Source of the DNA: Nitrospira sp.
Lineage (GTDB): Bacteria; Nitrospirota; Nitrospiria; Nitrospirales; Nitrospiraceae
Direction of reading: 5' to 3'
Length of the DNA stretch: 64,000 nt
Assembly (NCBI GenBank): GCA_030123565.1
Contig: CP126122.1
Coordinates: 186,001 to 250,000, forward strand
The notes under the pieces were generated by a model, which saw only the letters and a list, made by a program, of their open reading frames with translations, ran no database searches and was not told the DNA's origin. Positions 10,051 through 22,394 of this stretch are shown one piece after another. The stretch's first letter is position 1, and each line of letters starts with the position of its first letter. The position numbers and the translations under genes were made by a program.

Positions 10051-10074
10051 GAAGCGATCACGAAGCCAGTAGAT

Positions 10075-10165
10075 CGGTCGCTTCCCTACGCTGGTATTAC
10101 CCAGGTCAGGTTGTGAGGGTCGTCCGACTTGCTCGGACTCTCAGCCTATTGGCCCCCCTAGCTGT
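10075..10165 (-). promoter_or_regulatory. TPP riboswitch (THI element) controlling thiC-thi4
   Basis: The minus strand carries the conserved thi-box pieces in order: ggctgagag, then cctgacctgggtaataccag, then cgtagggaagcg. These form the pyrimidine- and pyrophosphate-sensing arms of the TPP aptamer. It precedes a terminator hairpin and thiC, so high TPP should end transcription early. Confidence 0.95.
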
Positions 10166-10299
10166 TGGAGGTGATCGTACCGACCTGCCGACACGATGTC
10201 AATCTACTGGAAGGCCCAGGAGCGAAGGTTCTTCAGTGCCGGGTCGTTGAGGCGAAGGGCCTGGCCGGACGTGAGCCCTGTACGTGGATGACGCAATCC

Positions 10300-17325: not shown

Positions 17326-18639
17326 GGCTCTTCAGGAAACCGTGTGGGTAGTTAACGTCTCTTGCGCTATGCTCGGAGCCTCACAAGGAGGAGCCGAGCC
17401 ATGCGCGACTTTGAACTCTATCAGGCCGTCTTGGGGTTGCGGGCCCCCTGGACCGTCGTCAACGTGGAGCTGGATGTGAAGGGGAAACAGGTGACCGTGA
17501 CCGTAGAGGCCGGACCGGGGCCCTATCCCTGTCCTGAGTGTCAGGAGCCGGTCCCGGGCTATGATCGCAAGCGCCGACGGTGGCGGCATCTGGATACCTG
17601 CCAGTTCACGACGTGGATCCAGGCGGACCTCCCCCGCGTGAGCTGTCCGACCCATGGGGTTAAGCAGATCGCGGTGCCCTGGGCGGAGCCCGGCTGTCAG
17701 TTCACTGCCTGGTTCGAGCGCCTGGCCATTGATGTGCTCCGGGAGTGTTCGGTGACGGGGGCTGCGGGGCTGCTGCGCATCACGTGGGACGAGGCCTGGG
17801 GGATCAAGGCTCGGGCGGTCGCTCGGGGGCTGAGCCGCCGGACCCAGGACATCATGCCGCACCTCGGCGTCGATGAGAAAGCCATCGCCAAGCGGCACCG
17901 CTACCTCACGGTCGTTGCCGCCCTGGATCGCAGCCGCGTCCTCTACCTGGCGGAGGATCGCAAGCAGGAGAGTCTGGACGGATTCTGGACGATGCTGACG
18001 TCCGCTCAGCGCGAGGGGATTGAGGCGATCGCCATGGATATGTGGGAGCCCTCTGTGCAATCCACGCGGGCGCATGTGGAGGGCGCCGAGACCAAGATCG
18101 TCTTCGACAAGTTCCACGTCGTCAAGCATCTCCACGACGCGGTCGACCACGTCCGCCGCGCCGAGCACCGAGCGTTGAAGCAGGCTGACGACGCTCGTCT
18201 CACCGGCACGAAATATCTCTGGCTCATGCGCCCCAAGGAGATGACCCCCGAGCAGCGGACCACGTTCCGCACATTGCAGTGCTCGGACCTCAAGGTGGCA
18301 CGGGCCTGGACCCTCAAGGAGCGCTTCCGCCAGTTCTGGGACTACACGTACTGCGGCGCGGCCCAGAAGTTCTTCGCCCGCTGGTTCTGGCGCGCCACCC
18401 ATAGCCGCCTGGTCCCGATGGCCGAGGTGGCTAAACTGATCCAGCGCCACCTCCCCAACGTGCTCACCTATCTGCAGCATGGCATCACCAATGCGGGCCT
18501 GGAAGCCGTCAACGCGACGATCCAGTGGGTGAAGAAGACCGCCCGCGGCTTCCGGAACGTCGAGCATTTCAAGACTGCGATCTATTTCCACTGCGGAGGA
18601 CTGGATCTCTATCCAACCCACACGAAAGCCTGAAGAGCC
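17326..18639 (+). mobile_element. Intact ISL3-family insertion sequence
   Basis: 1314 bases bounded by inverted termini: left ggctcttcaggaaaccgtg, right (complement) ggctcttcaggctttcgtg, both continuing with tgggt. It holds a single transposase gene and is flanked by an exact 8-base direct repeat. All parts needed for movement appear present, so it is a recent or at least undamaged insertion. Confidence 0.93.
17401..18633 (+). CDS. ISL3-family transposase
   Basis: 410 residues from the ATG at 17401, which follows AAGGAGG by nine bases. An N-terminal zinc-binding region (CPECQEPVPGYDRKRRRWRHLD...VSCPTHG) precedes a helix-turn-helix and the DDE catalytic core: Asp158 in LGVDEKAIAK, Asp213 in AMDMWEPS and Glu368 in GLEAVNATIQ, all in the DDE_Tnp_ISL3 order. 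Length is normal and no frameshift is seen. The gene almost reaches the right terminus, ending six bases before the element ends. Confidence 0.95.
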   Translation: MRDFELYQAVLGLRAPWTVVNVELDVKGKQVTVTVEAGPGPYPCPECQEPVPGYDRKRRRWRHLDTCQFTTWIQADLPRVSCPTHGVKQIAVPWAEPGCQFTAWFERLAIDVLRECSVTGAAGLLRITWDEAWGIKARAVARGLSRRTQDIMPHLGVDEKAIAKRHRYLTVVAALDRSRVLYLAEDRKQESLDGFWTMLTSAQREGIEAIAMDMWEPSVQSTRAHVEGAETKIVFDKFHVVKHLHDAVDHVRRAEHRALKQADDARLTGTKYLWLMRPKEMTPEQRTTFRTLQCSDLKVARAWTLKERFRQFWDYTYCGAAQKFFARWFWRATHSRLVPMAEVAKLIQRHLPNVLTYLQHGITNAGLEAVNATIQWVKKTARGFRNVEHFKTAIYFHCGGLDLYPTHTKA

Positions 18640-18796: not shown

Positions 18797-19858
18797 TTAA
18801 GTGAAAGATATGATCAACCAAAGAATGGCGGCGATATCAAAAACCACATTCCAGTCAAAGGATTTGCTAGCCAATATGCAGAAAAGCCAGGCATAAAAAG
18901 TTATGCCGAAGGACCACGTTAAGACAATAAAGAACCTTTCTAGGGTATCGCTGGGATCGCGAAGCATGACTAGAAGAAACAAAATGAGCACAAAGACAAA
19001 AAAGAAATTTGCCGCTGATTGAGGAGAATGAAAGGATTCGATGATTCCAACTAGAAATCCGATGAGTGCTCCTGAAAATAAGCCTCTTCCAAAGGCCTGT
19101 AATATTAGCGTTCGGCGCGCAGATGGAACTGAGGCCTGTTTTCTATTTTCACCTTCTTCTACTGGAATGTCCCCAGCTAATGACTCTATTACTATGTTTT
19201 TTGTAGCGTCTCGAACGGACGAACCGATGATGGTTCCCCATACAATTGCACATTGAAGACTGGCTACTATTAAACTCCCCACCAAAACAGAGACAATGAT
19301 AACAGCCAAGAAATCAAAGAGAGCGATGGGCCCATGTCCACTCCCCCCGCCAAATAGCCCCGGCGCATTCACACTGAGATTTGCTATCGCGACGATTGAA
19401 GATCCATGCTGAAATCCATGTATTTGAGCAGCAACGAGAATGGATGTCGGAATATTAATTGCTAAGTGTATAAAAAACTGTTTATCCACCTGAAAGAACT
19501 CCTTGGTAAAGAAGGTATCGAGTAAGGACTCAATTAAGTGATACCGAGACAAATTGGCTATCTGTAGGCGCGATACGATGAGCCCTACGAGTGCGCCGAA
19601 AACTATTTCAATTAGGAAGTCGCCCGCTGACAACTCGATCGCAGCGCCTAAGGATCGGAGCTGCACCACATCGGTAATCGCTAAGCGCAGGACGCTTACA
19701 ACATTAACAAAGTTTGCAATAACCACCGCACCAAAGGTAAGAACGCCAGCCTGTGCAATACTTTTGGTGACCTTCAGTTCAGTAAGCTTTTTATGCGACT
19801 GAGAATAAGTAGAGCTATCTTGAGACCGCGTCTGTCTACGGCCAATTATCAAGGACAT
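18797..19858 (-). CDS. Integral membrane protein of unknown function
   Basis: 353 residues, visibly AT-richer than the surrounding genes. After a 30-residue polar N-terminus there are about eight hydrophobic segments (AGVLTFGAVVIANFVNVVSVL, FLIEIVFGALVGLIVS, FIHLAINIPTSILVAA, LFDFLAVIIVSVLVGSLIVAS, GLFSGALIGFLVGIIES, FFFVFVLILFLLVML, FIVLTWSFGITFYAWLF, AAILWLIISFT). A polar loop (ESLAGDIPVEEGENRKQASV) sits mid-protein. No family recognised. It lies next to the insertion sequence and a second orphan gene, so it is probably acquired DNA. Confidence 0.7.
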   Translation of the reverse strand: MSLIIGRRQTRSQDSSTYSQSHKKLTELKVTKSIAQAGVLTFGAVVIANFVNVVSVLRLAITDVVQLRSLGAAIELSAGDFLIEIVFGALVGLIVSRLQIANLSRYHLIESLLDTFFTKEFFQVDKQFFIHLAINIPTSILVAAQIHGFQHGSSIVAIANLSVNAPGLFGGGSGHGPIALFDFLAVIIVSVLVGSLIVASLQCAIVWGTIIGSSVRDATKNIVIESLAGDIPVEEGENRKQASVPSARRTLILQAFGRGLFSGALIGFLVGIIESFHSPQSAANFFFVFVLILFLLVMLRDPSDTLERFFIVLTWSFGITFYAWLFCILASKSFDWNVVFDIAAILWLIISFT

Positions 19859-20027: not shown

Positions 20028-20417
20028 TCAAATATTATGAGGTTCCGAATGGGTTGCATAACAACGTATTTCCACTGTTTCCAATAATCTTTTTGCTCTA
20101 TTCAGGTTATCGAACGGCGTTGAAGTATCCGGCCCGAATTGCGCCATGAAGCGATACCTGAGTGCATGAAGGCGAGAGAATAGGTCGACGTGCCGGTTGT
20201 AGCGTTCAATAAGGACGTAAGCTTGGTCCAAGGCGTCCTTATCCTTGGGGCTTTCGTTCGGTCCAGGCTTCCGCGTTTTACCTTCCCCCTCATAGCCGAA
20301 CGAGCTCCGAATTGAGTTGATGATATCTGGCGCTTGATAGAAGAGTGCGAGGATCTCTACGATGCTCGCTATGATGGCACCGCTTTGAATGAGATCGGTC
20401 AAGTCCTTTAGTGACAT
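20028..20417 (-). CDS. Hypothetical protein with one N-terminal hydrophobic segment
   Basis: 129 residues if it starts at the ATG at 20417; an in-frame GTG at 20453 would add 12. Neither has an ideal ribosome binding site. Residues 3-25 (LKDLTDLIQSGAIIASIVEILALFY) are amphipathic to hydrophobic, followed by a charged stretch (GEGKTRKPGPNESPKDKD) and a helical domain (LIERYNRHVDLFSRLHALRYRFM). No family recognised. Base composition is intermediate between the AT-rich gene at 18797 and the core. Confidence 0.5.
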   Translation of the reverse strand: MSLKDLTDLIQSGAIIASIVEILALFYQAPDIINSIRSSFGYEGEGKTRKPGPNESPKDKDALDQAYVLIERYNRHVDLFSRLHALRYRFMAQFGPDTSTPFDNLNRAKRLLETVEIRCYATHSEPHNI

Positions 20418-20453
20418 TATGTAAACTAAACTCCAAATAGCGCGGACGATCAC

Positions 20454-21081
20454 CGCGCTCTCTTAGCTAGACCGCCAAACGATGACCTCCAATCTAACAG
20501 GTTGGGCAAGCCATCGGAAGGAGGAAGAAACACCCGAACGCTGTTTGTTCTCAACCCGTTTTCAGCGAGGGGACTGGCATAGTCTTCACTGCGCGTATTG
20601 ACCGAGCACCATCCAATGCTCCCTCCGTATGCCTGATTCTCCCTCTCCGGCCTATTAGACGGGGGGAGGACCGACCGGCTGGTGAGCGAGCATCGGCCGA
20701 TCCGCCGCTCTTCCGGGTAGAGCCTGGCGGGCGATTGTCCGCCCATTGACTGCATGAGCAGGTACCCGACTAGCCGTAGCAGGCGGCCGTTGCGTTTCGG
20801 AGGCAACGGCGAAGCCTGTCCTGTCTGAGCCGGTAGCCGGCGAGTTGACAGGCTTCGAGCAAGCACGGCGCAGTCGGGTGCTCAGGCAGGCGTCAGCGGC
20901 GGACCAATCGCCTGTCAGGCACCGATCCCTTCCCACGCGCCCTTCGACCCATCTCCCAAGCTCTTTCTAGGCCTTCTTCTCATGGCTGGTTTCATTGATT
21001 GTGCGGGAAAGGGTATCGTAGAATTATTCACTTTGGGTCGGCCGGTGATCCAGAGTATTTCGCTCAACCGAAAGGCTGCAG
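20454..21081. other. Non-coding region with a structured palindromic element
   Basis: Minus-strand frames cross this stretch but their low-complexity Arg/Ser/Pro composition, and the nested complementary arms beneath them, argue that they are not genes. The remarkable part is 20722-20920, entered separately. The remaining 20454-20720 and 20921-21081 show no further feature. Confidence 0.45.
20722..20920. ncRNA. Candidate structured RNA or palindromic element
   Basis: Nested complementary arms form a multi-branched fold: an outer stem 20722-20743 with 20898-20920, a middle stem 20755-20771 with 20872-20884 (acccgact / agtcgggt extended by tgagc / gctca), and inside it two perfect hairpins, gccgttgc / gcaacggc (20786-20810) and gaagcctgtc / gacaggcttc (20811-20856), the latter capped by gccgg / ccggc. 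It may be an RNA gene or a non-autonomous mobile element; strand unknown. Confidence 0.45.
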
Positions 21082-22185
21082 GTGAAAACGGTTGCCACGC
21101 TCCCTCGTCCCATTACGGACTATCAGGCCCTCTCGCCCGATGAGCTGTTCGAGAGAACCCGTGCGGCCAAACGCACGCTCGGTGATCGGGTCATGATCCT
21201 CGGCCATAACTATCAACGGGACGAAGTCATTCAGCATGCCGATTTCCGTGGCGATTCCCTGATCCTGTCGCAGGTGGCCGAACAACGGTCCGATCGGCCC
21301 TATGTCGTATTTTGCGGCGTGCACTTCATGGCCGAAACCGCCGATGTGTTGAGTCGTTCCAATCAAACCGTCATCCTCCCCGACATGGCGGCAGGCTGTT
21401 CCATGGCGGACATGGCCGCGATCGAACAGGTGGAACAGTGTTGGGATGCGCTGGGGCGGATCGTGCCGGTCGAAGAGACGGTCATGCCGGCGGTCTATGT
21501 GAATTCAGCCGCGGTCCTGAAGGCCTTTTGCGGGGAACATGGCGGTCTTACCTGCACCTCGTCCAATGCGCGGAAGGTGATCGAGTGGAGCTGGGCGCGC
21601 CGAGAGAAGATCCTCTTCTTTCCCGATGAACACCTGGGCCGGAACACGGCCAATAAAATGGGCATCCCTCGCGACCAGATGATCATCTGGGATCCCTACA
21701 TGCCACGCGGCGGCAATTCCGTGGAGGCGATCCAGCGGGCGAAGTTGATTCTGTGGAAGGGCCATTGCAGCGTGCACCAGATGTTTCAACCGTCGCATGT
21801 CGATTATTTCCGCAAGCAGCACCCCGAGATCAAGGTGATCGTCCATCCGGAATGTCATGAGGACGTGGTCAACAAGGCCGACCTGGTGGGCTCGACGGAA
21901 TTCATCATTCGAACCATTACCGCCGCGCCTGCGGGCACGGTCTGGGCGGTCGGCACGGAACTGAATCTGGTCAATCGGCTCAAGCACGAACAGACCGACA
22001 AGAAGGTGTTTTTCCTCTCCTCGACCGTGTGCCAGTGCGCCACCATGTTCCGCATCGACGCTCCGCACCTCTGCTGGGCCATGGAGAACCTGGCCGAAGG
22101 GCATGTCGTGAATCGCATCGTTGTCCCGGCAGACGAAAAACAGTGGGCGAAGGTGGCGTTGGACCGAATGATGGCCCTCAGTTGA
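21082..22185 (+). CDS. nadA: Quinolinate synthase NadA
   Basis: 367 residues with GTG start. It condenses iminoaspartate with dihydroxyacetone phosphate to quinolinate for NAD. Family stretches: VMILGHNYQRDEVIQHADFRGDS, CGVHFMAETADVLS, AAGCSMADMAAIEQVEQCWD, TCTSSNARKVIEW, FFPDEHLGRNTA and STVCQCATMFRIDAPHLCW, which include the three cysteines for the oxygen-sensitive 4Fe-4S cluster. No nadB or nadC is nearby. A GCTGA-rich repeat follows its stop. Confidence 0.96.
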   Translation: MKTVATLPRPITDYQALSPDELFERTRAAKRTLGDRVMILGHNYQRDEVIQHADFRGDSLILSQVAEQRSDRPYVVFCGVHFMAETADVLSRSNQTVILPDMAAGCSMADMAAIEQVEQCWDALGRIVPVEETVMPAVYVNSAAVLKAFCGEHGGLTCTSSNARKVIEWSWARREKILFFPDEHLGRNTANKMGIPRDQMIIWDPYMPRGGNSVEAIQRAKLILWKGHCSVHQMFQPSHVDYFRKQHPEIKVIVHPECHEDVVNKADLVGSTEFIIRTITAAPAGTVWAVGTELNLVNRLKHEQTDKKVFFLSSTVCQCATMFRIDAPHLCWAMENLAEGHVVNRIVVPADEKQWAKVALDRMMALS

Positions 22186-22218
22186 CAGCGAATAGCCCTC
22201 AGCGGTCAGCCTTCAGCC
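22184..22218. repeat. GCTGA-rich intergenic repeat, copy 3
   Basis: Starts at the nadA stop codon (tgacagcgaatagccctcag, then cggtcagccttcagcc), the same words as copies 1 and 2 in shorter form. Confidence 0.6.
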
Positions 22219-22366
22219 AAGACTACGTTGCGAAGTATTTCAGGAGTACCGGCAGTTCGAAGCTCATGCCTTCCTAGCTCGTGAAATGGCTGGTGCCTTC
22301 CCCCTCCCTTCCGGTATATTCCATCCACCAGCCGAGCGCCTATGGCCGCTGTCCATTGCGGTGCCG

Positions 22367-22394
22367 ATCGCTGAAGGCTGACAGCCGATAGCTC
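22367..22394. repeat. GCTGA-rich intergenic repeat, copy 4
   Basis: atcgctgaaggctgacagccgatagct just before ileS; inverted relative to copy 3, so nadA-ileS spacer carries two facing partial copies. Confidence 0.6.

Follow-up and report, generated by a model that had tools for sequence, protein, structure and literature searches.

The nested palindrome at positions 20722–20920 of the window (the whole 64,000-nucleotide stretch analysed, from a 4.6 Mb, one-contig Nitrospira sp. genome) is apparently one copy of a hairpin-forming repeat family that is restricted to the phylum Nitrospirota and, as far as we searched, undescribed. Its conserved inner domain, about 115–145 nt, folds into a three-way junction, as covariation establishes, and its outer stems are locus-specific, with mutually complementary arms in many copies, though not in all. 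We place at roughly one half the probability that the element is a fold-back palindromic DNA repeat able to copy its outer arms from the host. The relevant features of the window are as follows.

20722–20920, + strand: whole nested palindromic element, outer stem plus inner domain (folds and homologues)
20722–20743, + strand: 5' arm of the outer stem, 16+6 bp (minimum free energy fold)
20898–20920, + strand: 3' arm of the outer stem (minimum free energy fold; 3'-side remnants in genomes G016 and G027)
20747–20891, + strand: conserved inner domain, 145 positions and 46 pairs in models R1 and R2 (covariance models, alignments)
20764–20777, + strand: 5' arm of the middle stem (ACCCGACT a GCCGT), partner 20865–20879 (fold, alignment)
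20786–20810, + strand: first inner hairpin (GCCGTTGC..GCAACGGC) (fold, alignment)
20811–20856, + strand: second inner hairpin, with internal loop CTGTNTGAG / CGAGTTnA (fold, alignment)
17362–18633: ISL3-type transposase
18797–19858 and 20028–20453: orphan ORFs without a Pfam match at E<=0.001
20995–21024, + strand: promoter-like TTGATT-18-TAGAAT, probably that of nadA (related sequence upstream of nadA in most of 19 genus regions)
21082–22185, + strand: gene of 367 aa that we take to be nadA-like, the usual neighbour of the element in the genus

Folding bore out the nested arrangement proposed in the initial annotation, coordinates included. In the minimum free energy structure the outer stem comprises 16 bp, two of them G-U (20722–20737/20905–20920), continued by 6 bp (20738–20743/20898–20903), and the middle stem consists of 13 bp in three runs (20746–20759/20880–20896) followed by 13 bp in two runs (20764–20777/20865–20879). 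The inner hairpins pair over 8 bp (20786–20793/20803–20810) and 10 bp (20811–20820/20847–20856), the second with a 5-bp tip (20829–20833/20837–20841). All of these stems had been called perfect, which is true of the two inner hairpins, whereas the outer and middle stems are long and interrupted. Folded as RNA, the forward strand reaches -128.1 kcal/mol, where shuffled sequences average -86.1 (z -9.5); the reverse strand gives z -9.9, DNA parameters give z -8.9, and 0/200 shuffles matched the stability of the element. A repeat finder at default thresholds did not list the arms of the window element, presumably because its uninterrupted DNA arms are too short for that program.

BLASTN placed the element in 13 of 29 genomes of the genus. 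Covariance model R1, covering the inner 145 nt, matched 47 of 175 family genomes in 10 of 22 genera, and model R2, built from 67 matches, found the element in at least 59 of 395 phylum genomes and at least 27 of 169 genera, with eight candidates scored per genome and absence and copy number therefore read as lower bounds. A sequence pattern for the 3' half, which was derived from family members and could miss distant relatives elsewhere, retrieved 19 stretches from a collection of 84,980 species, 19/19 from Nitrospirota (titled Nitrospira, Nitrospirae, Nitrospirota or Thermodesulfovibrionales). A deeper scan of five genomes, at 150 candidates each and E<=1, counted 15 copies in G301, 18 in G244, 11 in G203, 3 in G229 and 3 in the host genome; the second inner hairpin alone accounts for 3 of the 18 and 4 of the 11. 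Each of these five genomes holds several copies, but many phylum genomes show one or none. The two further matches in the host genome are adjacent (C1:4521099–4521237 and C1:4521342–4521478). Many copies are orthologues in related genomes, and counts of alignment cells and copies are not counts of independent events. Solo second inner hairpins of the GGACTGTCTGAGCCCGAAGGGCGAGTTTCC type lie at L217:7267–7310 and L242:2910–2953 in G244 and on contigs C1, C2 and C13 of G203, and loci L171 and L173 (G050 and G045) hold tandem element pairs about 110 nt apart.

The initial annotation had matched the palindrome to no family, and library searches agree. Over the element, Rfam release 15 returned no family at the gathering score; permissive scans of two members gave chance-level matches only, and 12 of 40 far loci yielded only tRNA and SRP. 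The only Rfam family in the window is a TPP riboswitch (RF00059, 71.8 bits, 10066–10169, - strand), at the edge of a variable region bounded by nadA. Plasmid and phage sequences gave no BLASTN match to the element at E<=1e-5, and the literature searched held no description of the family.

The homologues share a common fold, a three-way junction in which a middle stem meets two hairpins, one short and one long, the long one bearing an internal loop. In the Nitrospiraceae alignment (A4), both-side changes occur at 35 of 46 pairs, with 88.6% of cells paired; in A5 (56 matches: 46 far, 10 near) the figures are 44 of 46 and 91.7%. Both alignments were fitted to the covariance model, and these values lean towards it. 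On all five measures 0/500 shuffles equalled either alignment, and in slid controls pairing fell to 27–44%. The internal loop CTGTNTGAG/CGAGTTT recurs in most copies seen, far ones included, and is replaced in the inspected copies of G301, G348 and G413. This wealth of compensatory changes upholds the earlier reading of a folded structure rather than a chance cluster of repeats. The same changes had been put forward as a test for RNA; they are present, but the test is weaker here, since they would also arise if one arm were copied from the other, so that covariation alone is no proof of RNA. A protein-coding reading was considered as well and is ruled out for the whole element, since the homologues differ by indels of one base and of other lengths.

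The outer arms tend to match their own partners. Among 60 Nitrospiraceae copies the complementarity of a copy's own arms has a median of 29 versus 13 for crossed arms, and among 45 far copies 21 versus 12; own arms exceed the 95th percentile of crossed pairs in 35/60 and 35/45 copies, respectively (the sets exclude sequences that contain N or lie too close to the end of a contig). The ten copies of G301 are on average 76% identical in the core and 55–57% in the flanks, and their own arms have a mean score of 23.4 versus 13.8 for crossed arms, one crossed pair (35) exceeding the best own pair (28). Own and crossed means are nearly equal in G244 (13.6 vs 11.6) and G203 (14.3 vs 12.7), where flanks are 0.50–0.65 identical between copies and locus-specificity is less clear.

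At two loci the arms resemble host sequence. Copies in g14, g15 and g17 stand beside a gene that we take to be glutaredoxin-like, and the flank beyond the element there carries an inverted copy of the last codons, stop codon and 3' flank of this gene. Arm pairing extends 30 nt into the gene, stop included, in 6 of the 40 copies with a nearby stop, all of them at this gene; in most of the remaining copies of this set, pairing breaks off before the stop codon is reached. When the gene end was compared with the far flank, the fit beat 500/500 shuffles in 7 of 11 copies tested and was borderline in two (2 and 3 of 500 shuffles as good), and two g15 copies showed no detectable arm copy at this gene (46 and 94 of 500 as good). 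By these sequence comparisons the far arm is an inverted repeat of host sequence, and since coding sequence is unlikely to have adapted to the element, the far arm is probably the copy. Copied coding sequence is confined to this one gene and represents one or two events. The tandem pairs at L171 and L173 also lie near it. At L295–L320, 3' of the same gene, a different nested hairpin family (GCTCGCGCAACGCGCGGCCTCCGAAGGCCCTCGTTGGACGCGCGC) stands inside long stems; GCTCGCGCAACGCGCGGCCTCCGAAGGCCCTCGTTGGACGCGCGC hairpins occur there in numerous sister genomes from which the studied element is missing at that place, several then followed by T, and pieces related to the GCTCGCGCAACGCGCGGCCTCCGAAGGCCCTCGTTGGACGCGCGC family are also found upstream of the element in some genomes of the genus.

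The second case concerns a G301 locus whose counterpart in G413 lacks both the element and the 5' arm and carries the 3' arm (score 42, 0/1000 shuffles as good); the inverse of this 3' arm fits the 5' side in G301 (score 28, 0/1000 shuffles). In G348 the same locus has neither element nor arms (3' arm score 14, 286/1000 shuffles as good). A host-derived arm is thus probable at this second locus too, and loss of the element together with its 5' arm by deletion in G413 is a possible event that would give the same picture. Polarity is the same at both informative loci, where the 5' arm would be the copy and the 3' flank the original.

We read the copy in the window as an old insertion that lies upstream of the promoter of nadA and has eroded in some relatives. 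nadA is present in 27 of 29 genus genomes, and a profile search of these 27 (E<=1) located full or partial copies upstream of it in 15 and one copy away from it in G017. The gap between element and gene is usually 134–153 nt and widens to 744–791 nt in six of the 15 (G023, G002, G011, G006, G005 and G010; e.g. L045:8430–8900, - strand). The insert between element and nadA in G023 holds a PF09720 antitoxin and PF05016 ParE-like toxin pair, which the inserts of the other five resemble by eye; in G015 and G028 the apparent end of the same ParE-like toxin gene lies directly upstream of nadA. At L043 (G011:C20), nadA and its upstream element stand twice in tandem, spaced about 2.9 kb, which may be a true duplication or an artefact of assembly. 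More inverted repeats (GCTGTCAGCCTTCAGC-like) are visible by eye at window positions 22190–22390, in the interval from nadA to the following gene.

The 5' side of nadA-site copies is missing to a growing extent in G025, G018, G027 and G016, the G003 copy is without both inner hairpins, and 3'-side remnants adjoin nadA in G016 and G027, the rest of the element being gone. Because it is eroded in sister genomes, the nadA-site copy seems dispensable, with no essential role there. The only promoter-like match within 20400–21150 fits nadA, has related sequence upstream of nadA in the genus both with and without the element, and lies downstream of the element, which puts the element outside the nadA leader. 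A leader or riboswitch of nadA is accordingly ruled out, the wide gap in six genomes counting against it as well. As for the other neighbours named initially, the orphan genes are indeed there, and the wording 'next to an insertion sequence' proved loose, the ISL3-type transposase being on the same stretch but about 2.1 kb off.

The element could instead be a functional structured RNA, either a trans-acting RNA gene or an mRNA-end element, its + strand transcribed and its three-way junction kept by selection; we regard this as possible, on the doubtful side. Strong covariation and conserved single-stranded motifs agree with it, and so does the composition of the helices. On a working RNA strand G-U should stand well above A-C. 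The + strand of A4 helices 2–6 has 66 G-T versus 51 A-C in 61 Nitrospiraceae copies (61 of 67 rows, leaving out one duplicate, L053, L146, L147, L191 and the second L157 match), or 66 versus 32 once a junction pair that frequently stays open is set aside, and 45 far copies (A5 rows without near rows, L245 and L243) have 64 versus 26. Mismatches in A4 are mainly A-G, G-A and G-G (148, versus 18 pyrimidine-pyrimidine), much of this at few positions. The G-T excess is modest, favours the + strand and leaves room for selection on one strand (about 2 to 2.5-fold), but G-T makes up only about 4% of standard pairs in the far set. A control of 18 tRNAs gave 23 G-U and 0 A-C, a contrast biased by the preference of the tRNA finder for standard pairs. 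Also against a structured RNA stand the patchy distribution across the phylum, the erosion at nadA and the lack of a promoter-like match driving the element in the window. Gene context (66 of the 67 rows of A4 and 45 rows of A5, leaving out short matches; ORFs >=100 aa, no gene caller) points the same way. In the far set the 3' side faces an ORF stop in 31/45 copies, in 17/45 at 26–54 nt with the ORF on the opposite strand, and the 5' side faces a start in 25/45 and a stop in 10/45; the favoured + strand is antisense to the ORF of the adjoining stop, an observation at odds with a simple role as a 3' UTR. No orientation bias appears in the Nitrospiraceae set (3' side towards 24 stops and 32 starts, 12 stops within 50 nt). 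Not every copy is intergenic: an ORF, ignored in these context counts, covers the centre of the element in 14/45 far copies. RNA or single-stranded DNA of the + strand is a possible working form, and an RNA function of the element is likewise possible.

Of the three guesses offered in the initial annotation, a non-autonomous element fits best, because the family is multicopy in some genomes, is missing from or decayed in others, and at two loci bears outer arms that resemble the host. A dedicated RNA gene has no promoter-like match upstream of it in the window to back it, and G-T pairs are few, with a modest excess over A-C; a link to the insertion sequence is not supported, no protein family having been seen in common among the copies. 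The 1022 ORFs around Nitrospiraceae copies form recurrent clusters that reflect shared synteny, none common to all, and the surroundings of the far copies likewise have none in common. A conventional miniature transposable element, with terminal inverted repeats of its own and moved by a Y1/RAYT or IS enzyme, would account for the several copies in some genomes, for the element missing from the orthologous site in G413 and G348, and for nearest relatives lying in the same genome for 8/10 G301, 7/8 G244 and 6/7 G203 copies (a 57-copy set without L243 and short matches, in which G348 and G460 copies are under-sampled). Two G301 copies, L222 and L223, nevertheless fit G460 and G348 copies better (91 and 89%, 87 and 86%) than any within G301 (86% and 82%), so that recent spread within genomes is no more than possible. 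Among 15 genomes examined, Y1_Tnp is absent from 3 of 9 that bear the element (G203, G387 and G325) and occurs in 5 of the 6 for which no copy was reported, and the element was seen at 0/12 examined loci of 26 Y1 matches; neither neighbouring protein families nor Y1 transposases thus supplied a mobilising enzyme. One locus compared with two element-free relatives showed no direct repeat by eye, its flanks being too diverged to fix the ends. Terminal inverted repeats common to copies, of MITE or ERIC/NEMIS type, were not seen in G301, where own arms pair and the flanks hardly agree between copies (0.55–0.57 identical, 0.55 on the 5' side; core 0.76). Such an element is distinctly unlikely.

Position relative to genes bears on two further proposals. 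A long transcription terminator hairpin of ordinary origin would suit the many copies just past stop codons, as well as the sister genomes in which another long hairpin, in several followed by T by eye, occupies the place of the element at the glutaredoxin-like gene; yet T rarely follows the element on either side (by eye; L209 differs), termination does not require a conserved inner domain, and no + strand gene ends just before the element in the window, which makes this very improbable. Integron attC sites, with boxes RYYYAAC and GTTRRRY, are imperfect palindromes often found by a stop codon and keep structure better than sequence, as the element does; many Nitrospiraceae copies read ACACAAC...GTTGGGT, and a toxin-antitoxin pair adjoins the element in G023. 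The window copy, however, has GTC instead of GTT, GTT appears in 2/47 far rows (simple pattern), the box sequences are not kept, no arrays were seen in the stretches examined beyond tandem pairs, and conservation of the inner domain exceeds that of attC centres. We give hardly any credence to an attC-like site of single-strand recombination.

Among known repeats, the NEMIS/Correia elements of Neisseria are, like the present family, hairpin repeats beside genes, but each is a simple long stem, whereas ours is a three-way junction. PMC2229807 describes NEMIS/Correia as proposed RNase III substrates that affect neighbouring mRNAs, with 24-bp terminal repeats and target duplications. It also covers ERIC/IRU/RU-1, palindromic repeats with long stable stem-loops proposed to act on mRNA stability, and lists for ERIC terminal repeats of 7 bp, TA ends and duplicated targets. 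The element resembles ERIC, as described there, as a palindromic repeat of the 100–200 bp class forming long stem-loops, and differs in its locus-specific outer arms and its phylum, a separation drawn from descriptions. REPs, 20–40 bp according to PMC3733652, and BIMEs are likewise extragenic palindromes of bacterial genomes, but the element shows no association with RAYT (Y1_Tnp); Nitrospira moscoviensis is among the genomes tabulated in PMC12306157.

Quasipalindrome template switching copies one arm from the other, giving perfect inverted repeats without selection, and normally acts on short chance palindromes; here, unlike the usual case, its substrate would be a conserved element that recurs, and flanking host DNA would be drawn in. 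For the fold-back repeat that we favour, the palindrome would fold back during replication or insertion, and the new strand would then probably prime on itself and copy its own flank (snap-back synthesis, or template switching), which would lengthen and repair the stem. A long hairpin or cruciform would result at gene borders, and any transcript of it would form a very stable structure that could, by analogy with ERIC and NEMIS, affect the stability or ends of neighbouring mRNAs. Snap-back synthesis would also create compensatory changes without selection for RNA. Template switching leaves the conserved unpaired motif CTGTNTGAG/CGAGTTT unexplained. A bolder form of the fold-back reading, which we rate as rather improbable, is a phylum-wide mobile DNA that carries only its folded centre and has its terminal inverted repeats made anew at each site by self-primed copying of host flank, with constant polarity (5' arm copy, 3' flank original).

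The element thus represents a sizeable structured family that belongs to a whole phylum and turned up in none of the libraries searched, with arms apparently copied from host DNA at two loci, unlike the terminal repeats of known miniature elements. If the fold-back reading is true, covariation in this family would come from DNA synthesis and not from selection on RNA, a warning for covariation-based RNA discovery. The family is also a natural case in which strong covariation need not mean functional RNA, and for which the comparison of G-T with A-C on each strand and of filled with empty sites becomes a useful control.
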